DNA of 64,000 bases from Pomacea canaliculata (taxonomy: Eukaryota; Mollusca; Gastropoda; Architaenioglossa; Ampullariidae), in assembly GCF_003073045.1 (NCBI RefSeq), contig NC_037592.1, positions 3,011,371-3,075,370 on the forward strand, in the 5' to 3' direction. Shown here one piece after another: positions 3,701 through 64,000 of the stretch. The notes below the pieces were generated by a model. That model was not told the DNA's origin. It saw only the letters and a list, made by a program, of their open reading frames with translations, and made no database searches. Positions within the stretch are counted from its first letter, which is position 1. Each line of letters begins with the position of its first letter. A program made the translations under genes and the position numbers.

Positions 3701-4237
3701 ACCTTTTCCAAGCACCTGTGTAAACAGAAGTCGGTCAGCGGAATGATACTAAATGTATCATCAAGAAAAAAAACCAACACAATCTACTCATACTTTAGTT
3801 TAATTTCGCTAATCTAACAAAAATTAATAGTGAAGTAAGAAAATTGTAAATTGCAAAATGTATTTAAAATGGATCTGATGTGATCATAATATTTCTTCGA
3901 AAATTTGGAAAGGAAGTAAGGGACGATAGCTCCACTTAATATTAATGTCGTCTGCAACGCTATGCTTGAACGTTCGTGGTGAAAGCATGTGAATCACGTT
4001 TACTACAAGATAGAGGTCGGTGATTGGCGATGCCTGAGATAATGTCATTATCATCTTAAAATCTGTGAAAGAGGCTGTAGTTAGAAGTTATTCAGTGGTC
4101 AATATTTAACCGCTATTTCAATACAGGGCATCTATAACAGGTTTTCCTAATCCCATACAAACATCTCGACTGTGCTCATCTATGTCACTGCTTGACTTCA
4201 GTCTTTTGTAAACTGCTGGAAAGATTTTATTATCAGA

Positions 4238-7200
4238 ATGGGAATATCCACATTAAGAAAGTCAAGCGCACTCAATTCAGCAGCAGTAAATTTGTTAAGA
4301 AATAGTGGAAATGTACAGGCGAGCACAAAGGCAACAATTAACAATTTGCGCGCAAGATCGTTGGAAACAGAAGCACAGACAAATTGGCATCACAAAATCA
4401 CCGTGACGGAGAAAAGCACAAAGAAAAGAGGACAATTTATTAAGCTGGAAGTGTCTGTTATTGACACTCATCCAGGTGAAACAGACCGACCGACAGTAGT
4501 GGCCGTTCACGGGAGTCCAGGGTCAGGAATGGACTTTGAACCCCTTATTTCTCATCTTGTAGAAAGTGGAGTTCGGTTTGTTGCTCCCACAACACCAGGT
4601 ATGTCGTTCAGCATAAGTGTAGCCACGATTCATCTGTGTGGTCTGGATATGTGCATGTGAGTATGTGTGTGTTATTGTGTCACGATAAGCATTAACTGTG
4701 GTAAGACAAACAGTCATGATGCTTGTTTTAGTGCCCTTGACTAATTTTAGAAATAAATTGGAAAACAATTACCATGTACCATTGTAAACATTTCTTGTAC
4801 TGCTATAAATGCAGTAAAAAATGCATACATGCAGATTTTATAAATATTTCTGATAGATGATCATTGTAAAGGCCTTCGATCAATTATGTGCTGTCACTGT
4901 CCTAGGACAGCTGTTAGTTCTTCTGCCAAATTTGATTTTGACACAGCAACTTAAAATGTGTACAATGGTAAAGGTAATTTTGTGACCTTATACTTGATGG
5001 GGAGTGAACGTTGAGTTAGACCCCTCACTTATCTTTGGTCCATCTTTTGTGAGGATGATGCCTTTCTCCACTTAGTTTGATGCCTAACCTCAAAAGTGTA
5101 TGGAGTTGGTTTGTCTCTCCACAGCTGTGTCAGATGTGGAAAGTATTCTGCATCACGAGAGTATCAAAATGTCTAGTCTGTGAGCCTTTGGGTTTGGAGG
5201 CTGTTGCTCTAACCACTATAGACTAATCTGCATCTTCAAAATTATGTATTAGAATAATCCTATGCCTAAAGACAAAGTTCCTTGTACTAAAGGCAATACA
5301 TATTAACCACAAAGCATGGAAGAGTTTTATGTTTACTTCTTTGAAAACTGAGTTTAAAAAAATTCATGCTACAGGATTTGAACCAAGCATTGTGGAACCA
5401 TGGAAACTGCTACATCTGGATTACTCCACAAAGGGGCGAGCTTTGTTGTTGGAAAAAGTTCTGAAAGAAATCAGCGTTGACAGGTATTACCCATACATAC
5501 ATATATTACCATTTTGATTTAAAGCATCCTATCTATTTATTTGTAAAAAAGAAGTATTGATTATGTTCTGCTGCAGCTTAACACTTTAACAATAATACTA
5601 GACATCTGTAGGATGGTTTTAAACTATTTTTTAACACTAATACAGGTTATCTTTAATCAGATGTCACTTTTGCTGTCATAAAAGAGCAAATTCCAAAAGA
5701 AGACGATTGTCAAAAGTCAGTTTCTAATTAATATTGCAGGATGTGCCACCAAAGTTTAAATTTTCATGCATTGTGCATTTTTTCATTTCACATGAACACA
5801 CCCATGCATGCTACATTAACTTAAAAATGTATGCCCCTCTCCACCACTACGATCAAAACCTTTGATCTAGGATTAGGCAATAATTATCTGTGTGCATTAT
5901 TGTATGTTTTGTGTGTGTGTGTGTGTGTATAAGAGAGAGAGTGCATATTTTATCATTGCATTTTATGCATTCAATAATTACAATAAAAATTCATTACTTT
6001 TTAGGATAGATCTTCTAATGTCCCACAGTGCTGGAACTTGGACTGGATATAAGATGGCAGCTGAGTGGGAGTGTGTGAAATCTGCTTGCTTTTTGAACCC
6101 TTGTGGAGCAAGACCACACAAGTATATATATATACCTGTCTATTAATGTGACTCACTTCAATTCATACGAGGGCATTTTTAATTATGTTCTCTGTTGTGG
6201 ACTGTTTGTGGCTCTACAAGAAATACAAGAAATCAAAAGCTGTCTCTTGTTTTTCTCTGTTGACAGAGAGGAAAATGAAAACAAACAACTTTATTCTATT
6301 TAGGAACAGTATAGTACTTTTCATTTCATTCAGCGTTTTTTAAAAAGAATACTGTAGCATGAATATTTCCTAATAAGAATGGAAGCAACATGAAGATAGT
6401 GGTAGAAATGAGTATTCTGTTTATTACATTTGTCGATCAATGACAGTCTTAAGTTATGATATCACAGGTCTCTCCGTCCATTTGCATTTGTGCAAACCCT
6501 GGCTTGGATTTTGCAACAGAGAAGTCTGCATTATCTTTTGATGCCACTGATGGAAAGAGTCTACCAAAAAATAGGTAGAGAGACTGATAATATCCACTTA
6601 TTTAAAGCCATTGATGTTGCCCCATCTTCCATCACATAGAAAACAGTGATTTCTTATAGCAGCTGGAGAGAGTTATTTTCTGTTTAGGATCATACTTTCC
6701 AGAGAAGAAGAATAATGGTAAAAAAATGTGCATCATATAAAAGGTTTTCTAAAAGGGAATGGAATGCATTGATTTTTGCATATAGTTAGATGTTTCAAGC
6801 ATTATTATATAAAGTGATTGTAATTATTATAAACATTATTGTAAATTACAAGGCATTGAACATTAGCTGTGAGTTTTGATCAGTCTAAGCCATTCAATTT
6901 CTTATGCTAAAATGTTCAGGATTTACTGGCATCAAAGGGGGAGACCATATTGTTGTTGCACAGAAAATTGTAACTTCGCAAGGATTTGAAGATGTGAGTG
7001 TTCTAAGAGGGCTTTAACGTAGATGTTTACTGTAGCTGATATCATTTTGAAGGTTAACCTAAATAATGAAATAAACTCTTTACAGTTTAGAGTTTCTTGC
7101 TTATTGGAGGAGTAGTCATGGTTCTTAGGGCTAGGGTTAGTGGTTGAGTGAACTGTAAAGGGTTAAACTTAAAGTTTTTAGCATACCTCTGTCATTAACT

Positions 7201-10468: not shown

Positions 10469-13400
10469 ATGTGGAGTTTCATAATCTGGATGTTTCTCTT
10501 TGTACGGTGCCTTCGGTGTGCAGGTATAATTTATATTAATTTGGCATAGGTTTATTTTTCGTTGTTATGTTTTAGGATTTAGGGACTAGCGACTGAGATT
10601 ATAGATATGTATAACCTGTCCATTTAATTTGTGTGTTGGTGTGTATGTTAGTGAGTCGAGCTGACAGTCATGCGAGCACAGGTTGAGTGCAGTCAGTTAC
10701 TTGACCCTTGACCGGTACCTGTCAGTGGGGCGAGCACATGGATAGACGAGGCAGCTGACAAGGCCCACCTCTCTTGACTGCTGTGGGCGATAGTCAGCAG
10801 GTCGTGTACAGGACGACCAGTCCAGTCTTTGACCATCGTAAGTCAGTTCTTGCTTTGGCCACCGCGGCGTCGGCCACCCTCCACGGTGTCTTGGAGATGG
10901 TGTCGAGCCGGTCACGTGGCCAAGGATCAGCTTACTCGCTTGACTATTGAAAACTTACTCATTGATCTCGCCAAAGCAAATATTACACGAACTTAAATCC
11001 TTATAAATGTACTGGGGAAATGCATTTATTCACATGCCATGGAGGACAGGCAAGCATTGAACCAGTCCACAACGAAACAGACCTCATGGTCATTCCTTGA
11101 GTAGGCAAAAGGAAATGGGCAAACTTTAAAGACCAAAATATTTTATCGACATGTAAATCACAGCTAGTCAATCTAACTGGCGTCTGATGACATTAGACCT
11201 TCTCAAAAAGTGTAATGCTGAACGATTTTGTGGGATTGAGAGATCAGGTCTGCGCTTCCACCTAGCGGTCATACCCGTGGCCTTCGGGGGGGCGTTCATA
11301 CAAAAGCCGTCAATGATTGCTCTTGTCTTCTTTACAGACATCTATGTGGACACAGGTAATCCTTACAAACAAGGTCCTCTGGTGGCCGAGTCCTTCTTCG
11401 TGGACAAAGTGAAAGACCATAGTCCTCTGCGCTCGCTTGTCTACTACCCGACAAGTCCTGGACAATATGGCGTCTTTTTCTTCGTTACGGGCTTCAATGG
11501 CATCGCCGTACTGGAGTTCTACAAGGGCTTCTTGGAAGGAGTAGCGCAACACGGGTAACGGGTAGCAGCCTCCACTTCCTCTTTTTAGGTTTATTTCGTT
11601 CAGTTTATTCTGCATAATCGGGGAACAGGGGCTATCCACTCCCATCCCCATCGCACTAGTGCTAAGCTGAAAAAGTAGAAAGGTAAAGGGTTCTGTAGCC
11701 TTATAGCCAGTGGTCAAGTGACTCACAGTACCTTGGGTACGGTACGGCATGAAGGAGGTGAGGCTTAACCTTCTCTTTTCACCATCTTTAACCAGACACA
11801 CAAAAATATACTGGGTAACCTAGGAAGACTCGAACCAGCGAATTTTTATTACAGTCTAGTGCAGCAACTACCATGTTTCGTTACCGCCTTCCCCCCCAAA
11901 AAAAAACAAAAAAACAAAAACAACAACAACACAAAAACAACAACAACAACAACAAACAAACAACAACAAACAAACAACAAACAAACAAACAAACAAACAA
12001 CGAAGGTTTAAACGAAAACGTGCTGCGAGACGTTGACGATTAAAACAAGTCCAGTATTTGTCAACACGCATTTCCCTACGTCCTAATTATTAAATTATTT
12101 ATAAATTAATATCCGAAGACAGATGAATTTGAAATTTTTCTGCTTGATCGATTGATAATGATAATTATAAGGAATAATTATACTTTCCCATATGCGTCTT
12201 TGTCTGGTGGATTTTTTTAACAGCTTCATCGTAGCGGCGTCAGACTTGGTTCCGACTGACCACACAGTTAACTTGGTGGAATAGAAGAAAACTTCTTGAA
12301 GCAGTTGCAATGGGTATGTGGTCATCGCACTATTCTGTGATTTGACGCCTTCAGGTGTGTGCTGGACTAAGCTGAGCACTGTTATTGTATTGTTTGGAGC
12401 GTTTCACAGTAAATGAACAGAAAGCCTATGGACTGCTCATTCTTTGCAGCTACAGAAAAATCTGTCAACGCTGCTGGAGTCACATGTACAGGGAGTGGAG
12501 CCCAGATGGGACAGGGTCTCCATTGGAAGTCACTCTGCTGGAGCTGACACCATTATGTGGATGGTGCAGCAAAACAGCAGCCTCAGTCAGGTAAACCTTT
12601 TTGTCGAAACTCATCATCATCATCAATCATCAATTATCATCATCTGTTTTAAAAATAATGACAGAAAAAACTCAAAGAAGCAAATAAATGAAATGGATTT
12701 CGAGGCCGGACCAATATCCGACAAACAGCCTCAGGCTATGACGATGCGGACTGTTGCAGGCGGTGGTGCTGATGGGTCCCTTTACCACCAACTTCCGGAA
12801 GCCCTTCAACGTGTCGCTACCGGTGCTGATGGTGCAGAACGAGTTGTCTGTCCAGATCCCTGCCTGCATATTTAAAGAGTTTGGCTATCTCCACGTCTGG
12901 GACCTGTGGCAGTCCAAACCCAAAGTCCGCATGAATGTCAAAGTAAAATAAACACAATCTTTTGTCTGTCAGTGTGTGTGTGTGTCCATGTTCACCATTA
13001 TACAAAAGTGACAGCAAGGCAGAGTCATCAGTCATTAGCTACTATCCGTATAATATCGCATATAATATAAACAATAGTGGAGACAAACAGCAGCCTTTAG
13101 GAGAACCTGTACAGGTGACAAAGGATCTGAGAGAAGACCATTAACAGAAACTCTCTGTTGCCTTTTCATTAAAAAGTCCAGGATCCAGAGAGTTAGCTGG
13201 CGAGACAGATATTGTCCACTATTTTCGTCATTTCATCTGTCTCACTTAAAAATGTTAAACTTGAGGAAAAAATGTTTGGACTCCATTCATTCCTTTGTTT
13301 TCATTGGGTGGATAAGTTTTGCGGACATTATATGATGCCATTCTTTTTGTTGCAGGGGTATGGGCATTGCGCGATCGGCGATATGGACCTCTGGGAAAGT

Positions 13401-14964: not shown

Positions 14965-15015
14965 ATGGAAGATCACTGCAGGAGGACGTCCCACGTTGGC
15001 TCCTCGTCCAAATGA
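14965..15015 (+). promoter_or_regulatory. Upstream ORF overlapping the transporter start (ATGA)
   Basis: A 16-codon frame starts at ATG 14965 and stops at TGA 15013-15015. The stop shares bases with the presumed transporter start ATG at 15012-15014. This is a layout known to allow termination-reinitiation. It applies only if the transcript includes 14965. An acceptor-like CTGCAG at about 14975-14980 could remove it. Confidence 0.3.
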
Positions 15016-18000
15016 CTGCCCATGACACCCAACTCTCTGGAGGAGCTCCAGACAACACTTCACTCCGAAGAAAGGCATGGTGCAGGTCCAGTCGTGAAAC
15101 CACCTTTCTCCTCGCCTGTTTTGCGGGGGTCTTTGTGGGGTTTGCACTGGGCTTCGGAATCAGCGCCGTGCCTGGGGGCCCTGGCCAGTCCATGATCATC
15201 TGGTTAGGTAACACTGGTCAAAGTTTGGTCTGTTTTTGTTTTAGAGCAATGGTTGTACACTCGATAGGACTTATAAATGTGTCCACGGCAGCAGTGTTCG
15301 ACAGTCAGTCAAAAGCAATGGCTTTTCTGCGTAGCATGCAATGTGAGCTGAACGTTTTTTTATTTCTAAAATAATCAACAAAAATTTGATATTTTCTTAA
15401 CTTTTCCTTTTTTAAACAGTCGGTTTGGGTCACCCACTTTCTGTATGTCCATCCATCATTCTGGCCTTTTTTCGTTCTTTCATTCGTGTGTTCGTTTCTT
15501 TCTCTTTTATGAAATTTCGGTCTCAAAGCCACACAAATCAGTCACCACCGGCACACCTTTTCTGTTTCTTTTCTACCAAAATGATTAAAAAATACAGGTT
15601 TGTAGCATGCCTCTTAACCTTACACCTTCGAATCTCGAAAAATGTGTTTCATCGAAAAGGCAGAAGAGTATATTTCAGCCTGTCAGATTAACTGGAGCTA
15701 ATTTCGAAATCGTCTGATATATTCAAAGCGTGGCTTCTGAATGAAATTGTCTACATTTGTTTTTAACCAATTCTAAATATGTTTAATCAGGACTGCCAGG
15801 TGAGCTGTACATGCGGATGATGAATGCTGCCATTCTACCCCTTGTCATCAGCAGCATCATCGCAGGTAAGAGAGACAGTTTGGAAGACTTATAACGAGCC
15901 TCTTCTGTCTGCACCATATTTTACTCATATTCTGGTGGTTAACAGGAAACCTCAGTGACACCAGTAAAACAGAGTTTTATATGACAATGAAAGTGTGGTC
16001 ACTCTTTCGTTCACAAAGGTTGATGTATGCAAAAGTTTAAAAAGTTTACACCAGATGAGCTAGCTTCAGAAGCAGGTGAGTGTCAGTGTTTGTTGCTTGT
16101 TTTTGGTGTAGGTACAGCAGGACTGAATCCTAAAGTCAACGGACGCATCAGCATAGTGGCCTTCACTTACATCATAGCCACCAACCTCATCGGCGCCATC
16201 ACTGGAGCGGTCATGGCCATGGTCATCAATCCGGGTTAGTATAGAGCGATGATCCTCAGTACAATCTTCAAACAAGAAAATTTAGGGAAAAGTTTTGCTA
16301 CATCATGTTTTCTGTCAGAATTTCGCTCTTTTGGTTCGTTGCTTAAAAAAAAAATTAAATAAAGACAAAGAAAAGAAGACAAAGCAGGCAAAACAGTCGT
16401 ATGAAGAGGAGAAAAATGCAATAGACATTTAACTTCATTAAGGACACTGGTTCCTTTTCCAACAAAAAAATATCATTCTTCATGAGGATATAATTCGCTA
16501 ATCCAAAGCCCTTTATTTTCTTCATATGATGATAACCTCACAGAATAGTTATTTCAGCCATCATAAGCGCATTAGTTCCCTTCACAAGAAACTTTATCTC
16601 ATTGATGATAGATGATTCACTCATCCAAAGCTCATCGAAAACAGTTCATCCACTCATCGCTAACAGCTAGTATTGCTCAGAAGACTGTATTCTCACAGAA
16701 GACAGTTAATTGGCTGGTGCAGGAAGAAGCGGACTCATGACCTCGAAGGGTTCGAAACTCAGCGCCCGCAATCTCAGAACAGAAGACCTCTTTCGTCGAC
16801 TTCATTAGGCAAGAAATATGAAAAACATGTCTCAATCTCTCGATTTGTCAAATGCAACTAAAAAATAATAGGATGACAATGATGACGACGACGATGATGA
16901 TGATGATGATGATGATGAGAAGGAGAGAAGGAGAAATAGATGAGTTTCGGGGTAAACCCGTTTGTGTGCATGTTTGAGTGACTGGAAAAGCGCAAACTCC
17001 TTTATCAGTCAGTTCCGTTACTGCAGGAATCTGGTTCCCGACAACCTGGTGACCGCCACATTCCAGCAGTCTCAAACCCAGTATCGAGAGGTGCAAGCAG
17101 CCAACGGCAGCACGGACAACGCCACGGTGGTCCTGGAACGTTTTGTGTCAACTGGCGGCGGAGCTAATGCCCTAGGTCAGCCCCTAGCTCTCACATTTAT
17201 CTAGGCAAGATTTACTTTCAGATAACTTTAACAGTTTTAGAGGTCATAAACAGTAAAATATTACATTAAGCTGATTGGGAAAGCAAAGTAAACAACAGCA
17301 ACAACAACATAGTCCATGAACTCGTAGTCCTCAATTAAAATTGACCTTTATCACTCACTGGGAACTTCCTTAAGTGTGGAGTTACCCAGTTCCCGACCTG
17401 CAGGCTGCAGTAGAGAAACAAAGTTTTGCAGCTGCCAGCAATTACCCTTTGACCTCTCGCTGTTGACAGGCTTGGTTGTGGCATGCGCAGCTCTCGGGAT
17501 GGCAGCATCGCAGAGCAAAAAGACCGGAGAACCTTTTCTAGCGTTCTTCCGATCATGCTCTGAAGTTATCACTCTCCTGTTGCACCGCATCATATGGTGA
17601 GCAGATTTCAGCATTTCTTTAAACAAGACAAACCGATTTCACTAGCTTGTATGTTAGCAATGGAGCTCTCTAGGCAGACCAAGGTCTTTGTATTCATGTA
17701 TTTGTATCCAAGCACTTTCACTGCCCTCCAGCTAATTTAAGCACAAATAAAAAATTGTCGCAAAAGATATTCTGGATTTTTTTCAAAAAGACATAATTCA
17801 GAATCAGATTTATTTGGTGCTGGTGCAGGTGCTGCTGCCTTGCTTCAGCAGGTGTACTGTGTAAACCTTATCTTCACCAGGTTCACTCCAGTCGGTGTCT
17901 CTAGCCTCATCGCCAGTTCCGTTGCATCGACGAAAAACGTCCTTGTAACGGTGAGGGGCCTTGGCCTCTTTGTACTGTCGGAGACACTTGGCAACGTGGT

Positions 18001-19971
18001 TCTGGCGATCGGAGTTTCGCCCCTCCTCTACTTCCTCGTCGTCCGCAGGAACCCCTTCTCTCTCCTGGTGGGCGCCTCAAGGGCAGTCATCGCTGGAGTT
18101 GCGCCCCCTTCGTCGTCAGTAAAAGTTTTGGATGAGCGTGTGACATGTGTGCGTGCATCCGGTGCCATGGCAACGACATATTGTTATTTTTGTGTCGTCT
18201 GTTGGTGAAAATCCTTGGTCAGAACTCAGTTCCCATATTTAACACCGCAAAGTTTATTTTTAGATTACTGGCGAGTGAGCTTCTTATCGACAGCTTCATC
18301 GAAAGCGTTTTGTATTTTGTCGACTCAGTTCGATTTGAAAGAAAAGAAATATGTCGAAACTCTCATGAACACGAATGAAAATCTAAAGAAGATCAACCCA
18401 AAACAAGAATTTCAAAAGCAAAAATTCTCTCTTCCCCAAACCAGAAAAAAACCAATTAAGTGTACGATAACCAAAGCAAATATGCAACATCAAAAATAAA
18501 CTTTGATCATTATTCTTATTCTAACTTTTTTTTTTTACTGAATCGAAAACACTAGATTAAAAAAAAAAAAAATCAAGTTTTGCAAGAAAGTAATTTTGCC
18601 AGAAAAAAATATTTCAGTGTAACGAGCATTTTAGAGGTCGATTAGCATACGGCCAGGTGGCAGTGTCATAGATGTGTCGGCAGTTAGTTGATTTTATGAC
18701 GACCTGAGTGCCTGGTGGTGTGTCACTGTTTCCCACAGCGCCATCGCCCTGCCAGAGATCATCAAATACCTCGAGGAGAAAGTCCGGGTGGATCATCGGG
18801 TGTCTCGCTTCGTCGTTCCTTTCGCCGTCACGCTTAACCGGGACGGCAGCGTCATGTTCATCACGCTGACGTCACTGTACATAGCGCAGCTGCAAGGCGA
18901 CGTCACTGCCGACGTCATAGTTCTCGTGATGTATGACCATTTTGACCTTTACCCTCTGTCGTTTTCAGCAAGGATTTGGGTGTTCTTAAGCTCAGGACAG
19001 TGATAATAGGTGTTGTCACTAATGAAAACGGCGAGAACATGTGTCACAGTTTATTGTTTAGGTCCTTACTTCCGTCCCTAATATTTAGTAACACGCAACA
19101 TCCGGTTGACGTGTACAAGAGATGACAGCCCAAGCGAGAGACGGTTGCGTGGAAACTGTATAATGGTTTTATTTCCACGCAATAAACTGTTTACATTCAT
19201 TGCCATAATTAATAAGGAAAGTAATGCACTTTGGTATAGCTGTCCTTTTTTCAATCTGGAAATTTAAAATCGTATTTAGAAAAAAATGATGATCTCTGAA
19301 AAACAAAAGCAAACAATCCGAAGAACATTAAATATATTTGATAGACTTTGCAGAAATAGTAATATTATGTGTATTGTGAACTGGGATGTGTTGGTCACGT
19401 TATGCAAATATTTATTATAATTATGTTACCATTCTATAGCGGTAAAACATTGTGTGTGCTGTTTCAAATTATACTTGAAGTGTTATTCTACCGGTATGTT
19501 GGGGTTGACGTATGTTGATTGTCTGTTCGGAAGCTTGTTGGCGACGGCCAGCTCTCTAGCCATACCTGCCATCCCCAGCGCCAGCTTCGTGACCATTCTG
19601 CTCATCCTGTCCTCCATCAACGTCACGCCCGCCAACATCGGCATCCTCATGGCCATTGAGTGGTTCTCGTGAGTATCGCTCACTTTCAGGTGTCAATGAA
19701 GACATTGCTAACAGCAACACATACACACGCTCGCATGGGCAATCATCTCTCTGCACGTGCATTTTGCTTTTGTTTCAGAGACCGGATACGAACAGGTGCC
19801 AATGTGGTCAGCCACATCGTGTGTGGAGCCATAACCAACAAGCTGTGCATGACGTCACTGATGGCCACAGACCTTCTACAGACTACTCCACTTCGTCATG
19901 TCGAGAAGATGGTTATAGTTGAGGAACCTGACTCCGAGAAAGATGAAAGTCATCAGACCTCCCATCAATGA
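15012..19971 (+). CDS. SLC1-family (EAAT-like) transporter with altered cation sites
   Basis: Ten exons: 15012-15207, 15791-15865, 16112-16234, 16763-16808, 17027-17175, 17470-17596, 17881-18114, 18739-18930, 19534-19668 and 19779-19971, about 489 residues. SLC1 landmarks in order: LGLPGELYMRMM, LPLVISSIIAG, LNPKVNGR, FVDFIRNLVPDNL, a Cys-poor extracellular loop with NGS and NAT glycosylation sites, ALGLVVACAALGMA, HRIIWFTPVGVSSLIA, HP1 APPSSAIALPE, TM7 TLNRDGSVMF, HP2 IPAIPSASFVT, and TM8 IEWFSDRIRTGANVVSH. Substrate-site Asp and Arg (DRIRT) are kept. However, NMDGT is NRDGS, the TM7 Glu of EAATs is Ile, the last Asp of NVxGD is His, and the HP2 tip glycines are lost. The intron after 16808 has a GC donor. 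The donor at 18115 is the weak GTCAGT, chosen because it keeps frame; a stronger GTAAAA four bases on does not. ATG 15012 is the first in-frame ATG before TM1. Confidence 0.85.
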
Positions 19972-20077: not shown

Positions 20078-20083
20078 AATAAA
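20078..20083 (+). terminator. Polyadenylation signal of the SLC1-like gene
   Basis: AATAAA lies about 107 bases after the stop at 19971. Confidence 0.5.
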
Positions 20084-22255: not shown

Positions 22256-25200
22256 TTATTTCTTGGAAGAAGAACCTGGTGTTTTGGAGAAGGAGCTCTT
22301 TGGTTTGGGTTCTAAAGACTTGCGATGACCAGCATGCAATGGTCCTTCAAAGCCTCTACCTATGGCTCTCTGGCTTGGGCCTGGACGCCCTGCTTTTAGC
22401 TATGGACCAAAAAGAAGAAAAAGTAACATTATTTTAACAACTTCAATCCAATCTCTGAAAGGAGCAGGCAAGGTTTTATAGGATTGTTACATGCCCATCA
22501 ATGGCTGAGGTGAACATCATTCTCATTCAAACCTTGATGATACAAAATCTTATGTTCCAATTTGTCAGATTGTGTGAATCGTGTCTGGTGTGCAAAGCAA
22601 ACGCAATGACATTCAGAGGACTGGATAGGGTGCGCAGAAAACCTAATGTATTATACTGACATACTGAAATATTGATCTGCTGCTACTGTCTGTCAACAAA
22701 AGCTCAACTTCAAACACCATCCTGAGTGTCTAGGGCAAGCATGTTGAAATAAGATGGAAACCTACTCGTTCCTGGTAGCGACGTTCAAAATAGTCCATGT
22801 CAGACTCCCCTGGCCGGCGCATTGCAGACACTCTCTCCTCCATGTCATCAAATACTTGATCATCAGGGTTCATGAGTTGTCCTTTAAAAAAACAATTTGG
22901 ATATTTTTTTTTAGAAAAGTTAAAAAAATTCTGCACACTCTCAATATGACCCCATACTAACTTCAACATATTTCTGATTTCTATCAATTTTAGGCAACAT
23001 GGTTAATTGAGGTATTAGAAATGCACTTTAGAATATTAGCATGCCCTTCTTTTTCCTTTCGGTAAAATTTATAGATGAGGGGCTAGAAGACTGGGATGTG
23101 TAGCAGTAGATGTTATAGCAAACTTTCCTCAGTCAATCCTGTTGTTGAATGTTTGCCTAACTCCATAGAAGGTTGCAAAAGGTAAAGCAGCAAGAGAGAT
23201 GTACTGCCCTCACAAAATGCTGACCCCAAGAAAAGTAGGGTCTCTAACATTTCACTTCCCAATGACTGAAAGGTCACAGGACTTTTACCCCATCCACTCT
23301 AGATAACACTTACATCTGTAAGGAAGGATACTCAACCTCATTATCTTCAGCACCCTGTGGACCTTCACTAATGTTTTCACTAGTCTGTCTGACCTTTTGT
23401 CCGGTTGATTCATGTTCTGTCAGCTGAAAATCACTATATACATTTTGGTGTTAACTCAAATGCTCACCAGTCTGTCTGTGTGCCATGCTGTGAGCCTTGA
23501 TGGCCTGAACGTTGGCACGCAGAAATGGGTTGTCAGATGAAGTGATTGGCTGGTTAAGGAACTCTTCACTAGGAGCACCTAGCGGCACAATCAATTGGAA
23601 AAAAGCAAATCAAACTTTTAAAATGATACTACACAGCTCTGCTGTTCAACATTACATGCCTCGATGTTTTTGCTGTCTTGAACAAGAGCTGGCAACCTGC
23701 CATCAACAAATAATTTACCTAACTTCATCTTCTCTCATGCCAAATTGTTTTGATTGCAGTAGTATAGATTACAATAAAAACATTATGCTTTATTAAAAAA
23801 AATTTACCTTCATGAATAACATAACCTCATTTACCCACTGGGGCAGTTATAGTGGCTAGTTTTATGCACAGCCTCATGAATGATGCAAGAAGAATTTAAG
23901 CTACAATAACAATTAAAACAATGAATAGATTTGATAATAACCTAAGGTCAGCAGGATAAGAACACAGATTTGATTAAGTGATTTTAGCATCTCACTCTAA
24001 CTAAAGTGCATCTCTATAGGTAATGTGTGAACAATACAATACAACTTTATTCAATTCAAAAAGTGCTCCTACTAGATAATACATAAACATGTTGAAATAA
24101 TTTCTCTCTCTCTCTCTCACACACACACACATTACCAGCAACAATAGATACAGTTAGTGACCTCAGATCACCTCAGGCTAGGACAAGATGACGGCCAGTA
24201 GAGTTTATCAAGTAAATGGCACGTGGAATGAATGAATTGTGGAGATGATTGGTTCTGCATACGGGCATCATGTACTTACTGCCAGACCACAAGATCGAGT
24301 GAGAACTCACATGCCAACACATGATCAGAGATAGAGAGGAAGTGGGATGCCTTCCTAAGGATTTGCTGATGACAAATATCTGTAGACAAAAGTCTGCAGC
24401 CAATATATGATGCTAGACAATTAAATAATTATTAAAATATTGTAAACAGTGAGACCTTTGCCACTGGGGTCCAGGCGCATGTAGCCCTCAGCTAAGGAGG
24501 AGAAGCCTGTGATGCCACCCATTGCTGCGTAGGGTGTGGCCTGACCCACTGGGTGACCCCGCGCCTCGCGCTCCTCGGCTGTTTCGATTATCATCGTGTG
24601 GTCCATGTGTCCAGACCCACAGGCACAGGTGAAAGAGCTCCTAAACCCAGTGCATTTTGTGCATCCAGCTGCCAGGAAACAAAAGACTGGTTTATTTATT
24701 GTTTCACAAAATTTAACAACTGAATAAATTTTACCTGTTGGTGCAAGAAAGCATCAATAGACAACTACTTTTCTGGGAGTCAGATTTTAAATTAGACTAA
24801 TTAGTTTTTTAAAAGGGCTCTAAATCTGGTAATGGATCAGTTGCCAAAGTGATCGAAAAATTCTTCACACTGTTTTTATTTGTGGATCAATCAGCTGATT
24901 GATCAACTGATCCCTCACTCACTCCAAATGCAAAATAATAGGAGAAAAATGTCTAATACATATAACCCAAACCTTTCTTGCAAACATATGGAGCTTTCTC
25001 AAGATGGTCATCAGCAAAGTGTTTGCAAGTGCAGCGAATGGGTTGGCTTCCATTCAGTGGAATGTAATGATATGATACACAGCGGCAGCCTTGGACCTGG
25101 CAAGGGAGCAGAATAGGGCGCTCGCTTGGTATCTCCTCAAAGTCTGTTTTGTGTTGTTTGTATCTAAAAAATATGGACTGCATATTTTAAAGTATTCCTC

Positions 25201-32500: not shown

Positions 32501-35500
32501 AGACAAGATGATGTTCAAGTTAAAAAAATACTTTTTTCTCGAAAGAGAAACCAACCTTGACTGCATAAATTCTGCTGAAGTTTTGTGAGCTCCGCGAGAG
32601 AATCATTCACCCTCGCAAACTGCAGACAGTTGCTGGCCAAACCCTCCAAGCACTGTCCTGTAGAAGTTTTCATGGCCCTTTAAAGAAGGTCTTTAAAGTT
32701 AGAAGGTTTAAAAATTTAGACTTGTACAAAAATAAAATAAATAAGAGGATTATATATGCGAATGCACGGGGATGATAGGGCTACCTAGGTCACTAAAAGG
32801 ATGACATATGTCACTTCTTTGCCTCTATCAAGAGCAGTGAGGTCTACAGACAGAACGATGAATAACCTGGTGAATCCCATTATTCTGACTGCCACTAGGA
32901 TCAATAATCCGTTACTTTTTTCAATCGAGTTGAGCAATGCATTCACATATGATCGATTATATTTTTACATGTTATGATCAGCCCAGGCTTATTCTCAAAC
33001 CCTGACCCTAATCTTAACCCAAAAAGTTACTCAAACCCAAACCCTAACATTAACTAATCCAAATCCAAACCTAAGCCCTGGCGCTAGCTTATGTAGTCAA
33101 CCTAGATGTGCACTTCTCTAACAATCAAAGAAAGAAACAAAGAAACAAATACGAACGATATCAAGAGCAAAGAAACAAAACAAGAAACTTAACTGACTTG
33201 TATTTAAAAAAACAAGAAACTGATAAAAATCAAATCTATGACACTAAAGGACACCGTGATATAGTGGCGCCACCTAAGTAGAGCAAGAGTTAAGGCACAT
33301 AATTCTCTAGTTATCACTAAGTCGTTCAACTCGATAACAAAAATAAAGAAGTAGTCCCGTGTTCTTTCAATCGGTGGGCCGAGAAGTGTTCGAGATCTCA
33401 CTTATCTCGAGGACAGATGTTCGTAAGGGCAGTGACCCTCTCTTGTGCCTGGCTGTGTCCTCGTGCCCACCCTTGTAACCATTTTGGTGCTGACCCCACA
33501 GCGGGGTTATGTAACCAACTAAGTGGGAAAAATATATTGGCCAAGGGAGGGTGACTAATGATCGTAAGCCAGTTATTCTCGATAGCAGGATACAGGATAA
33601 CCTCCAGAAGAGGTTACTGAAGCAGGAATGACAACGATTTCCAGAACTTATCAACTCAACCATGTGCTAGGATCATGGGTATAGATGCTGACAGGAGGAT
33701 CATGGGTATAGACGCTGACAGGAGGATCATGGGTATAGACGCTGACAGGAGGATCATGGGTATAGACGCTGACAGGAGGATCATGGGTATAGAAGCTGAC
33801 AGGAGGATCATGGGTATAGACGCTGACAGGAGGATCATGGGTATAGACGCTGACAGGAGGATCATGGGTATAGACGCTGACAGGAGGATCATGGGTAAAG
33901 AGGCTGACAGGAGGATCATGGGTATAGACGCTGACAGGAAGACTAGCTCCGTACCAACAAGCTTGCTGGATGTTCTCCGGGACTGGAATGGATTCATTCT
34001 GTGCTTGTTTAATGGCCTCTACAGTCGTGTTCTTTGGCTGACATGTCCACAGCTGCCGCTGACAATGCTCTTCTGAAAACAATATAATGGCTGTTATTAA
34101 AAAACTTCTCTTCCCATTGAAGGATAAGTTCTTGTTTTTCTAAATTAGGGGAAGCTCTATCTTTATGTGTGTGTGTGTGCACAGACATGCATCCAAGCGT
34201 GTGTCCAATTGTCACATGCGTACGTCTGTGTAAAATCCAAGCATCGAATAAAACACAGAGTTCGACAAATGCAGCCATCTGAAAAACTGCATTTAAATAG
34301 CAGACGATTCGAAAGGTGAGGAAAATGCAGAGCAGTATAGATGATCACATCTTCATTTTCTGCTCTGGAAGACAGACCACTCATGTAGCACTGGACGCGG
34401 TTTGTATCAGAGCATCCTCCTCTCCGACATGCCAACAAACATCTGATGTCTGAACATGAGCAGTACTCATCTTTACAGTCAATGTCTACATGTAACTCAT
34501 GGTCCCACGGCTCGGGTGTTCTCCATGTACACCATTTTATTGCCACAACTCGCAGATTCCTGACTCAGAAGCCGCTGATGCTCGAGAAAGGTTTGTCAAT
34601 ATTACTTTCAAACACAGAGCTAGAAAACATGTTTGATGTTGCCGATGAACATTGGGGAACAATTCTCAGACGACGCCGAAGTACTGACAATTACTAGAGT
34701 GTGAGTTACTGAAAGTTGTGATCAGCATTGTTCACAAACATTACTAGGTGGGAGTTGCTAAATAGAACTAACATGTTTACACACTTGACCAGGTGTGAGT
34801 TTACCTGGGCCGCACAGTGACCGGTACGTGTCCTTGCTCCTGTTTAAAAATAATGTCACGGCTGAACTCCAGGACAGTGAGTGACAAAATATTCCTCGCA
34901 GTCCGACAGCAACTGTTGGAAGGCACTGTGACAGAAACAAAATAAAGTTTGAAAGGCCAGTGTTATTTTCAGGGTAAACAGACTTTTACAAATAATTATA
35001 CTAGCTTTATGGCTTTAACAATAGTAGGTAAATAGTGTTCTGAGTGTTCTGTCAAAATTTTTTAAATTTAGGACTTTCAAAATTCCCTTTGAACCCTCTA
35101 TTAGTAGTTATCTCTCTTTGAACCCTGTATCAGTTATCTCTCTTTGAACCCTCTATCAGTTATCTCTTTTTACAGTTCATCATCCAACTGTGTTTCGGCA
35201 GTTGTATGTCAATTTTTTTAAACATTGAACTTTACAAGTTAGATGTCCAAATATACAAAACGAAATTAGGCTTAATGGCTTTAAAGACAGAAATCCGGTT
35301 TCTGTAACCTTGGAGAAGTAATAGAAATGAACAGAAATTAGTTAAATGATGAGTAGGCCTGTTACACTAACAGTTGCATTGTATAGTCATTAACTGTCAG
35401 CAAAACTTTAATTATTAGCACTATCTTCGACAAATTATTTCATTTTAAATGTGGTTTATTTTTCCTGAAATCTTTTATCCTTGAGAAAGTGAATAGCCTC

Positions 35501-39529: not shown

Positions 39530-40850
39530 CTAGAACAAGCTTTCTATGCACTCGGAGTCGTGAGTTTCAAAGAAAAATCATGGTTTATCGTAATGGAGGA
39601 CATTTAGCTACAAGTGGCAAAATAAAGACAAAGAAGTATAAATAGTAAAAAGGTACAAATATTTAGGTTTGTGATGACTACAAAATTGTCCTTTGATGGA
39701 CATCTAAAAAGTGTTTGTGGGAAAGCAGGGGCAAGGTGGGGCAAATATGAAAACGACTAGAGTCTACGAAATATGGAATATTCAGTTTTTTAAGTTGTTT
39801 AATTCTTCTTTAAAACCATTATTACTGTATGTCTCTTAAACATGGAGGTTAACACATTATTGTGCTACAGAATTACTTTCTTGTGTGCAAACATTTCTTG
39901 AATGTGAGATGAGACGCCGAGTGCCAGGGCGTATGGAGAACTAGGCAGACAACCTCTGTATATGTACAGAACTATGTACAATACTATGTACAACACTATG
40001 TACAGAACTGTGCACAACACTATGTACAACACTATGTACAGAACTGTGCACAACACTATGTACAACACTAGGTACAGAACTGTGTACAACACTATGTACA
40101 GAACTGTGTACAACACTATGTACAGAACTGTGTACAGCACTATGTACAGAACTGCGTACAACACTATGTACAACAATATGTACAGAACTATGTACAACAC
40201 TATGTACAGAACTGTGTACAACACTATGTACAACACTATGTACAGAACTATGTACAACACTATGTACAGAACTGTGTACAACACTATGTACAGAACTGTG
40301 TACAACACTATGTACAACACTATGTACAGAACTGTGCACAACACTATGTACAACACTATGTACAGAACTGTGTACAACACTATGTACAACACTATGTACA
40401 GAACTGTGTACAATACTATGTACAACACTATGTACAGAACTATGTACAGCACTATGTACAGAACTGTGTACAACACTATGTACAGAACTGTGTACGGTTT
40501 ATAAAGCTAAGGTTGGGTCAAATGTTCTCAATGTAAATCAGTTCTACAGAATACTCTGAATGTTAATAAGTTCTACAGTAATCAAAGGAAGATGTGTCCA
40601 TGTTGTGCAAACATTGAAGACAAGAAACACTTTATGATGGAGAGTTGTAAGTACGATCATCTACAAGACAAGTATCTCAGTAATGTCAAAACTCACAAAA
40701 GTCTCTTGTTTTTTTGTTACAAAATGAAAACGCCCAGATTAGTCATTTTGTGGAAATGTTTATTTACTTTGTATCAGAGGTTAGGGCAGGACACAAATGC
40801 AACCAAAAATATCAACAGTCGACATCGTCACAGTGTTGTTGTTCTTATGA
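39530..40850 (+). mobile_element. Degenerate CR1/L2-like LINE ORF2 fragment split by a minisatellite
   Basis: Before the array, plus-strand pieces resemble the end of a LINE reverse transcriptase and its following domain: IMVYRNGGHLATSGK, then FFKLFNSSLKPLLLYV. After the array comes the zinc-knuckle region: CPCCANIEDKKHFMMESCKY and HLQDKYLSNV. There are many stops and frame changes. The 12-bp minisatellite at 39958-40495 lies where roughly 150-200 codons of the ORF would be expected. Confidence 0.55.
39958..40495. repeat. 12-bp minisatellite, about 45 copies
   Basis: Units are ATGTACAGAACT, ATGTACAACACT and GTGTACAACACT variants arranged in an irregular higher-order pattern of two or three. 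The 12-bp period keeps all frames open, giving MYRT/MYNT on the plus strand and YIVL/YTVL on the minus strand. It is not a gene. Confidence 0.95.
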
Positions 40851-61912: not shown

Positions 61913-63133
61913 ATCCCTCCCTTGGGCACGAACCTGAGTTCCAAGCGCTGGCTGTGCTTTGATATCTGTAGGACAAGAAAACAGTAAACAGTGTGTGAGT
62001 GAAGGAGTGTGTGACTGAGTGAATAAAACAAAGGCTCCCCGCTCCTTCCTCCCTCTCACGTACTCACATTCATTTTTTTAAAGACTGAGTCACTGCTTGT
62101 AACATCCTCATCTCTCTCTCTCGCACACACACACTGTCATTGCTTTGTTTTTAATGTCCTCAGTGTTTTCAGTCTCAATATAAAGAACGATAGAGAAATA
62201 ACAGAAAGAAGAGGAGGAGGGTAGATAAACTAGCGAAACTCTACTTTTAGCGCTAAACGAAATAGCGGACTTAAGGGATTTTGTTTTCGTTTGTTGAAAC
62301 CTCGTAAATCTCTTCTCCGGAGTCTGTTGACAAAAACAGTTACTCTTGCCTCTGTCTTCTCTCTGTGCCTCGCGCACTGTGGACATGACACCATGACAGA
62401 AGGCCGACGTCACGGGTGTACAGGGAGGACTCCGTGGAATAATCTGCGTGAAGCGTTCTGACGCCTCTCGCGACAGGAAACGAGAAACTCGATCTTTGCC
62501 GCTGACGCCGCGTGCTCTCACGCGAGATCCCCCGAGATCCTGCAGTCAACGTCGTGTCTGCCCCTTTCTATGGGAGATTAGAGAGTTTGAGATTCATGAC
62601 GCGTAGGGAAGACGCGTACTGCAACGGGTAGGGCCCGCCTCTAAGCTACCCGTTCTGAGAAAGCGATTGCGATTAAGCGACGGGAGCGCGAATGCAAGGG
62701 GAAGTAACTGCATGCATAGACAATTTTTTTGCCTCTGAAAGTAAAATAAAAATATGCAAATGCTAGTAGTGACCAGGGATAACCAGTACAATTTAATTTC
62801 AAAATTTCTCAGCATTTCATTCCTGACCCACTATAATTCCTAAGAATAATAAACTATTACACAATCAAAACTTGTTAAATGAAAATGCTACAAAAGATGA
62901 AATTGCTTATGGTTACTGCTTAAATTATGGCATAACTGTAATAGTATATACAGAACAACATAACAAAATAATATATATACATAATTAAAAAACATAAATA
63001 TTACAACTGTATAATAAATAAAAAATTAATAACATAAAGAAATAATTTTTGCCTATGGTATGAAATATTTATTCAAGAGTTATAGATAGTTGTTCCTATT
63101 GCTCTATAATAGTACTAAGAAATATTTAACGGT

Positions 63134-64000
63134 TAAGTCATAGCTGGAAAATGATTATTATGTCCTCACATAAAATGTTAAATTACCGAGACAAACTTGG
63201 CCCAGTAGTTGGCTCTTTTGTAACTGTAAATAGTTTCTGGAAGGATGTTTTAAAAGCGTACGAGATATTTGGAGAAAGTGTTGTGTGTAAACATATTGAA
63301 GAGATTATATCAGAGCCTATTTTTTGTAACAATAAAATTAAGATTGGGAATAAACCATTTCTTTATAGAAGTTGGGTAGACAAAGGGATATATTTAATTA
63401 AACACTTGCTGGATGAAAGAGGTAATTTTTTATCATGTCAAGATGTTAAAAGGATATATGATGTAAACATTAATTTTGTCTCTCTAAATGGTTGCATAGA
63501 AGCCATAAAGGAATATATGCATCAAGACAGAGAGAATGCAACTGAACCATCTCTGCTTGCCTATGACACAAATAAAACTCTAAGTGTAATTCAATCTGTA
63601 CAGAAAGGTGCAAGACTGTATTATGATAACATGGTAACTAATACACATGTGCCTAACTGTTGCTCAAAATGGGATACAAGACTAAATAGAAATGTAGATT
63701 GGCACATTATCTTCAGGAAAGTAGCCAAGATTAAAGATATTAAATTAAAATGGCTCCAAATCAGAGTCTTGCATAGAATACTGGGGACAAAAATAGCTTT
63801 ATTTAATATGGGTCTAGAAATTGATGATTTTTGTAATCACTGTAGAAGTGAAAAAGAAAACATTCAACATATTTTTTGGAAATGTAAATGTGTTCAAGAT
63901 TTCTGGCAAAACTTTCAAAATTATGTGTCAAATAAATGTGGGATTATGACAAAGATGATATTATGTGAACACCTGGTTTTATTTGGATGCAGTAATAACT
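63134..64000 (+). mobile_element. L1/Tx1-like LINE ORF2, C-terminal part, runs off the window
   Basis: One frame stays open for about 289 codons to the window end. It contains LGPVVGSFVTVNSFWKDVLK, FLYRSWVDKGIYLIKHLLDE, WDTRLNRNVDWHIIFRKVAK, KLKWLQIRVLHRILGTKIAL and the zinc-knuckle FCNHCRSEKENIQHIFWKC (C-x2-C...H-x4-C). This is the region downstream of the reverse transcriptase in L1/Tx1-type LINE ORFs. The reverse transcriptase core itself is absent upstream, where an AT-rich non-coding stretch begins, so the copy looks 5'-truncated. The long intact frame suggests a fairly young insertion. Confidence 0.8.

Follow-up and report, generated by a model that had tools for sequence, protein, structure and literature searches.

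An SLC1 gene of Pomacea canaliculata with replaced ion-coupling residues, and its four sister genes

What becomes of a glutamate transporter-like protein when the residues that bind and couple its driving ions have been replaced? The question is raised by a gene of the snail Pomacea canaliculata at positions 15012–19971 (+ strand) of a 64,000-nucleotide stretch, hereafter the window, which corresponds to C3:3011371-3075370. In ten exons, in frame and with a single terminal stop, the gene encodes a 484-residue protein of the SLC1 family (PF00375). A sequence-only reading of the window had described it as an SLC1 paralogue that keeps the scaffold and the substrate-binding residues, has exchanged residues used for Na+ and H+ coupling, and is divergent rather than decaying. 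How glutamate transporters lose or gain Na+ coupling is an open question that has lately been approached through reconstructed prokaryotic ancestors (PMC12668577).

Family membership, replaced residues and sister genes

Both halves of the protein match the Pfam SDF family (4.6e-12 and 7.4e-52; 46.1 and 177.1 bits, each above the gathering score of 27.9 bits), and its best matches in the PDB are EAAT2 (4.1e-65) and ASCT1 (4.8e-63), with EAAT1 constructs also among the best solved relatives. The core of helical hairpin 1 (HP1), transmembrane segment 7 (TM7), HP2 and TM8 is present in order, and the TM5–TM8 part aligns to the rows of EAAT2, EAAT1 and ASCT1 with a single gap of one residue, the EAAT1 row being the engineered crystal construct 5llm rather than the wild type. 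Over TM5–TM8 the protein is 29–37% identical to three EAATs of the same genome and to the EAAT1 and EAAT2 rows. In the 198 columns of the EAAT2/ASCT1/EAAT1 comparison, 102 are invariant in those rows and 47 of these are kept, so that calling the scaffold kept was too strong.

A profile search of the genome (440,159,624 bases on 24 contigs) returned 28 SDF matches, two of them within the window gene. Eleven stretches were read, and they yielded four genes that match the window gene exon by exon: L033 on C4, L032 on C3, and L029 and L030 on C14. Exon lengths agree across the five genes (75, 123, 127, 231–234, 192–195 and 135 nt) except in exons 6–7 of L029 and exon 9 of L030; exon 8 of L033 measures 192 nt, and an alternative query stretched it into a stop.

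Residues are numbered here as in EAAT3, with GltPh numbers in brackets, ligand lists follow PMC3958442, PMC10160106 and PMC12668577, and series run in the order window gene, L033, L032, L029, L030. At the Na1 site in TM8, D455 (D405) is His in all five genes, and the alignment bears out the reported change from NVxGD to NVVSH in the window protein. The NMD position of TM7 reads NRD, NRD, NRD, NAD and SAN, and the EAAT motif is thus absent from all five; M367 (M311) has become R, R, R, A, A, which agrees with the Met-to-Arg change (NRDGS for NMDGT) claimed for the window gene. The flanking N366 (N, N, N, N, S) and D368 (D, D, D, D, N), the TM7 Asn and Asp said to be retained, are indeed present in the window gene and in four of the five. 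T370 (T314) is Ser throughout. In TM7b the YE proton/K+ motif is likewise missing from every gene, its place being taken by FI, FI, FL, YI and FI (Y373: F, F, F, Y, F; the proton carrier E374: I, I, L, I, I), so that the reported Glu-to-Ile change also holds. The HP2 tip is altered as described, reading SLAIPAIPSAS in the window protein, and the tips of the five genes (AIPAIPSAS, AIPGVPSAS, AIPSVPSAG, AIPSVPSAS and ALPSVPSSS) have AIP (ALP in L030) in place of canonical GAA, with an Ala-to-Pro change fixed in every gene. D440 (D390) is Glu in all five. The list of changes in the sequence-only reading was correct in what it named and incomplete in what it left out, namely TM3, where T102 (S93, Na3 site) is Asn in all five genes; the neighbouring T101 (T92) is Thr in all five by gapless alignment.

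The substrate contacts D444, R447 and N451, and with them R445, are of EAAT type in all five genes, which confirms that the substrate-binding Asp and Arg are kept; T448 varies (T, A, S, T, S). In HP1 the sequence APPSSAIALP had been read as a loss of the Ser-rich tip. The sequence stands and the loss was overstated, since two of its serines match EAAT3 S332 and S333 (Ser in all five, and S, S, S, T, T, respectively), and the residue following the HP1 Pro (ALPE) is Glu in all five. Together these positions give a shared signature of TN in TM3, PE in HP1, (N)xDGS in TM7, A(I/L)PxxPS in HP2 and EW..DRxR..N..SHxxC in TM8, which was derived from these same five genes and from which L030 deviates in TM7 (SANGS). 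The canonical genes of the same genome have the TM3 Thr in four of four cases, and NMDGT, YE and the D455 Asp in three of three.

The five genes form one clade with support 100/100. Support remains at 100/99 without the blocks at the HP1 tip, in TM7, HP2 and TM8 (155 of 223 columns remain, of which 142 were used), and the clade is therefore independent of the altered motifs. Identity to the window gene is 50% for L033, 41–45% for L032, L029 and L030, and 29–37% for six canonical animal rows (199–206 columns). The canonical rows comprise the three EAATs of this genome, EAAT2, ASCT1, the engineered EAAT1 construct and three bacterial proteins, and a column had to be filled in at least seven of the nine. 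The bacterial rows are L001–L003 of the four loci found in a bacterial scan, L004 being left out. L001 and L004, from contigs of Planctomycetaceae metagenome-assembled genomes, are EAAT-like and seemingly close for bacteria, at 62% and 64% identity to the EAAT1-construct query over the matched part.

Of the 49 columns that do not vary in the canonical rows, all five genes keep 14, a further 27 are mixed, and at eight the five share a single new residue: Y264F, T315A, T378L, G385A, A387P, D418E, G432S and D433H in the numbering of the window protein, where D433H and D418E correspond to D455H and D440E of EAAT3. Judged from these alignments, at least five genes in the Pomacea canaliculata genome form a divergent and old SLC1 subfamily, which seems to be a conserved new branch rather than a broken copy. 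No report of such an SLC1 subfamily appeared among the literature matches listed, which is weak evidence of absence; excerpts of PMC5110648, PMC5237233 and PMC2873418 were silent on it, and a search of viral contigs for relatives with the nine-exon form of the protein gave three pattern matches, none of which was confirmed.

Exon structure, selection and decay

The claim of an intact frame over ten exons stands, with joints that are not trivial at the phase between exon 3 and 17027 and at donor 18118. All exons lie on the + strand, and their TM labels follow what we take to be the SLC1 fold. Exon 1 (15012–15207) carries the N-terminus and TM1 behind an assumed ATG, a candidate start upstream of which the reading frame stays open to 14946, and ends at the donor TAG/gtaaca. 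Exon 2 (15791–15865; TM2, GLPGELYMRMMNAAILPLVISSIIA) and exon 3 (16112–16234; TM3, with YIIATN at 16168) measure 75 and 123 nt, as they do in the four sister genes. Joining exon 3 directly to 17027 produces a phase clash, and a linker exon is suggested here because each sister gene carries a small one, FADL(I/L)R, with the same end phase and ending before RN. The candidate, exon 4 (16778–16808; TM3–TM4 linker, TSFVDFIR), has a GC donor (AG/GCAAGA) and an alternative acceptor at 16763; a search for linker exons restricted to GT donors recognised no candidate in the window, and spliced alignment instead placed the start at 16749 and added a 19-nt microexon. Exon 4 is the weakest part of the ten-exon model.

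Exon 5 (17027–17175; NLVPDNLV..ALG) follows an acceptor directly before RN, which is common to the four sister genes and to the canonical gene parts L025 and L031. A nine-exon model, in which exon 3 would run to 16238 and exon 4 begin at 17009, is also in frame; it was rejected because these six genes or gene parts place the acceptor before RN and a linker exon is present in each of the four sister genes. Exon 6 (17470–17596; TM4–TM5) has 127 nt, as in L033, L032 and L030. Exon 7 (17881–18114, 234 nt) runs from TM5–TM6 to the HP1 tip and ends at the in-frame donor TTCGTC/GTCAGT. The donor at 18118 has a better consensus but is out of frame, and the choice of 18114 is settled by the HP1 intron, which has this phase and place in all four sister genes; by match ends, the EAAT genes of this genome share the intron places at HP1 and before RN. 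Exon 8 (18739–18930) contains HP1b (ALPE) and TM7, with NRDGSVMFI at 18836 where NMDGT..YE is expected, and exon 9 (19534–19668), of 135 nt as in L033, L032 and L029, contains HP2 and the EW motif with D440E at 19658. Exon 10 (19779–19971) encodes TM8, DRIRTGANVVSHIVC, in which D444, R447, T448 and N451 are kept and D455 is His, followed by the C-terminus and the stop. A polyadenylation-type hexamer (20078–20083, +), a pattern only, lies about 107 bases after the stop.

Alternative exons that would bring back the canonical motifs, which had been named as a finding that would overturn the sequence-only reading, were not found: TM5–TM8 queries from ten SLC1 proteins hit only the known exons in the window at E < 0.1 and otherwise left three chance matches (E 0.19–0.89). 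The window's own protein, which was the only query covering TM1–TM4, likewise brought up no further SLC1 exons in the 64 kb.

Could the unusual residues instead be drift in a gene that has recently come under relaxed selection and is dying? The extent of divergence (47 of the 102 invariant columns retained), the weak donor at 18114 and the GC donor of exon 4 would fit such a history, as would the apparent one-base frameshifts in two of the sister genes, two in L029 (exons 6–7, C14 at ~2.10 Mb) and one in L030 (exon 9, C14 at ~5.78 Mb), which may reflect decay or assembly error. Neither stops nor frameshifts interrupt three of the five models (window gene, L033 and L032), the last two of which have undefined ends. 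When substitution without selection was simulated on the nine-exon coding sequence, 49 of 300 runs were still stop-free at 90% identity, and the open frame alone therefore does not exclude a recent loss of function. At 46% identity, in contrast, no run out of 300 remained open and the mean was 9.5 stops. The same replacements recur in all five genes with codons that differ silently (His CAC/CAT, Asn AAC/AAT, Arg CGG/CGC/AGG), and in the nine-exon model the exons have a G+C content of 0.557 (third positions 0.654) against 0.375 in the introns. Given these data, we regard a recently dying gene as extremely improbable.

Purifying selection had been proposed as a further check. By the Nei-Gojobori method the nonsynonymous rate (dN) is lower than the synonymous rate (dS) in all ten pairs among the five genes (0.37 against 1.24 for the window gene and L033; five exons, four for pairs with L029, L030 being partial), and these ratios are only a rough bound because synonymous differences, at 0.59–0.67, are near saturation. 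With the open frame, the main replacements shared by four sister genes and the silent codon differences, the sequences support the view, already put forward in the sequence-only reading, that the window gene is divergent and not long decayed.

Possible modes of transport

How might such a protein work? The reading we favour, to which we give an even chance, is that the window protein would be an elevator carrier for acidic amino acids that is no longer driven by Na+ and K+ and would work by exchange or downhill transport, perhaps linked to H+; what the sequences show is its anatomy, the clade and the replacements that the members share, and its substrate, coupling and direction are predictions. 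The alignments show that the SLC1 fold is kept, together with side chains that hold an acidic amino acid, and that substrate is proposed because D444, R447 and N451 are retained. They also show replacement, at several places by an identical residue across the five genes, of the Asp at Na1, of one Thr of the Na3 pair, of the M367 switch that permits Na2, of the proton carrier E374 and of the HP2 gate tip. With these gone, the cycle of three Na+ and one H+ against one K+ would no longer be run, and the substrate would bind without the full set of Na+ and be exchanged or carried passively. Less certainly, the Na1 His, together with Arg or Ala at M367, might take the place of the missing cation, and its protonation might then set the affinity or give H+-linked transport.

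Mutants of EAAT3 show what single changes at these sites can do: D455N and D455S carry out exchange only, and D455A and D455E neither exchange nor net uptake (PMC3958442), while K+ coupling and concentrative uptake are both lost in E374Q (PMC10160106). Precedent for binding without Na+ is documented for the uncoupled AncInt, and for the prokaryotic family it is inferred that Na+ independence came through an allosteric change first and the loss of site residues later (PMC12668577).

Several observations weigh against the favoured reading of a carrier no longer driven by Na+ and K+. In the window gene, ion-site columns are kept in 2 of 6 cases against 45 of 96 other invariant columns (p 0.68), with no excess loss; these losses match the background, and the evidence that they carry meaning comes from the sister genes. 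Across the five genes, ligand-contact columns are constant in 8 of 24 cases against 34 of 175 others, which is not significant (p 0.10). The shared change D440E is harmless in EAAT3, where the mutant is functional (PMC3958442). T101 in all five genes, and N366 and D368 in four, are kept, and some residual Na+ binding may remain through these three residues. The near-saturated synonymous sites, the frameshifts in L029 and L030 and the further absence of N366 and D368 from L030 count on the same side. The retained T101, N366 and D368 also bear on the idea that canonical Na+-coupled transport survives through shifted sites, for which it can be added that, in simulations with a vacant Na3 site, Na+ still reaches a site close by when D455 is not ionised (PMC3958442). 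However, substitutions of D455 and of E374 each stop net concentrative uptake in EAAT3, and we consider this survival very unlikely.

A firmer role for protons is conceivable, in which the Na1 His and the Glu after the HP1 Pro, each present in all five genes, would form a proton path that drives acidic amino acid transport. Bacterial H+-coupled members of the family (ExtH) carry substitutions at T92 (hydrophobic), M311L and D405N, with a putative protonation site in HP1 at S279E (PMC12668577), and the genes described here are likewise altered at M311 and D405. Unlike in ExtH, T92 is kept here, the new residues are Arg or Ala rather than Leu and His rather than Asn, position 279 holds Ala or Ile, the HP1 Glu lies five places beyond it, and the genes have animal introns. 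A proton-driven carrier of this kind seems unlikely to us. A broader proposal, somewhat less likely than not, is that fixed side chains have replaced bound cations. Na1 would have gained a protonatable His and Na3 an Asn, and three members would have an Arg at the NMD switch, giving an animal elevator carrier free of Na+ and K+, H+-linked or passive, whose origin would be separate from that of the bacterial H+-coupled lineage although some of the positions changed are shared.

With Na1, the proton carrier and the HP2 tip all altered, the canonical cycle would be expected to stop, and EAATs have a separate anion-channel function (PMC8763778). Both points would suit a protein that keeps the fold without transporting, either as an anion channel or as a subunit that regulates other SLC1 protomers or senses glutamate. 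In the window gene, however, substrate-contact columns fare better than the remaining invariant ones (all 4 kept against 43 of 98; one-sided p 0.042, with small numbers, hand-picked sites and T448 included though variable in the sister genes). This argues against a pure channel, which would not need these contacts, and we hold a non-transporting role to be rather improbable.

Where, then, does the window protein stand among known systems? It shares with EAAT1–5 (SLC1A1-3, 6, 7) the Pfam family, the order TM3-HP1-TM7-HP2-TM8 and the EAAT-type residues around R447, and the five genes differ from them by NRD/NAD/SAN for NMD, FI/FL/YI for YE, D440E, D455H, T102N and AIP for GAA in HP2. Like ASCT1/2 (SLC1A4, 5), it has no proton-carrier Glu, and it has Phe for Tyr373 as in the ASCT1 row. 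At E374 and R447, where the window protein has Ile and Arg, ASCT1 carries Gln and Thr, and it keeps the NMD motif and D455 that are lost here. The nearest precedent we found for an animal SLC1 protein with changed coupling residues is the mosquito dicarboxylate carrier CuqDCT, an animal paralogue with a changed TM8 and altered substrate and ion selectivity; it differs in altering D444 (D444N) and T448 while keeping D440 and D455, whereas here D444 is kept in all five genes and D455 is His (PMC3737229). Profile and alignment place the window gene in SLC1, but the residues that define EAATs, ASCTs, the bacterial H+-coupled members and the mosquito dicarboxylate carrier assign it to none of these groups.

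Five natural animal paralogues with kept substrate contacts and replaced ion sites would offer a ready series for tests of coupling residues, and canonical EAAT genes of the same genome are available for comparison. If the favoured reading is true, the label 'glutamate transporter' on such genes can conceal proteins that do not use Na+ to clear glutamate.

Other features of the window

The nearest recognised gene downstream of the SLC1 gene lies on the opposite strand and is represented by FAM221A/B exons at 24424–25186 (4e-29 and 3e-27). Upstream, an alpha/beta hydrolase exon is found at 4196–4657 on the + strand (DUF1057, 1.7e-8), and the stretch at 12417–12872, which contains the nucleophile-elbow-like VSIGSHSAG and has no Pfam match, may be a later exon of a hydrolase. 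Tandem arrays at 33621–34139 and 39868–40556 give long repetitive frames on both strands (of RIMGIDAD and TMYNTMYRT type) and are likely satellite-like rather than genes. At the far end, a zf-RVT reverse-transcriptase zinc-binding piece (63130–63999, +; 3.6e-7) probably belongs to an element of the long interspersed nuclear element (LINE) type that runs past the end of the window.

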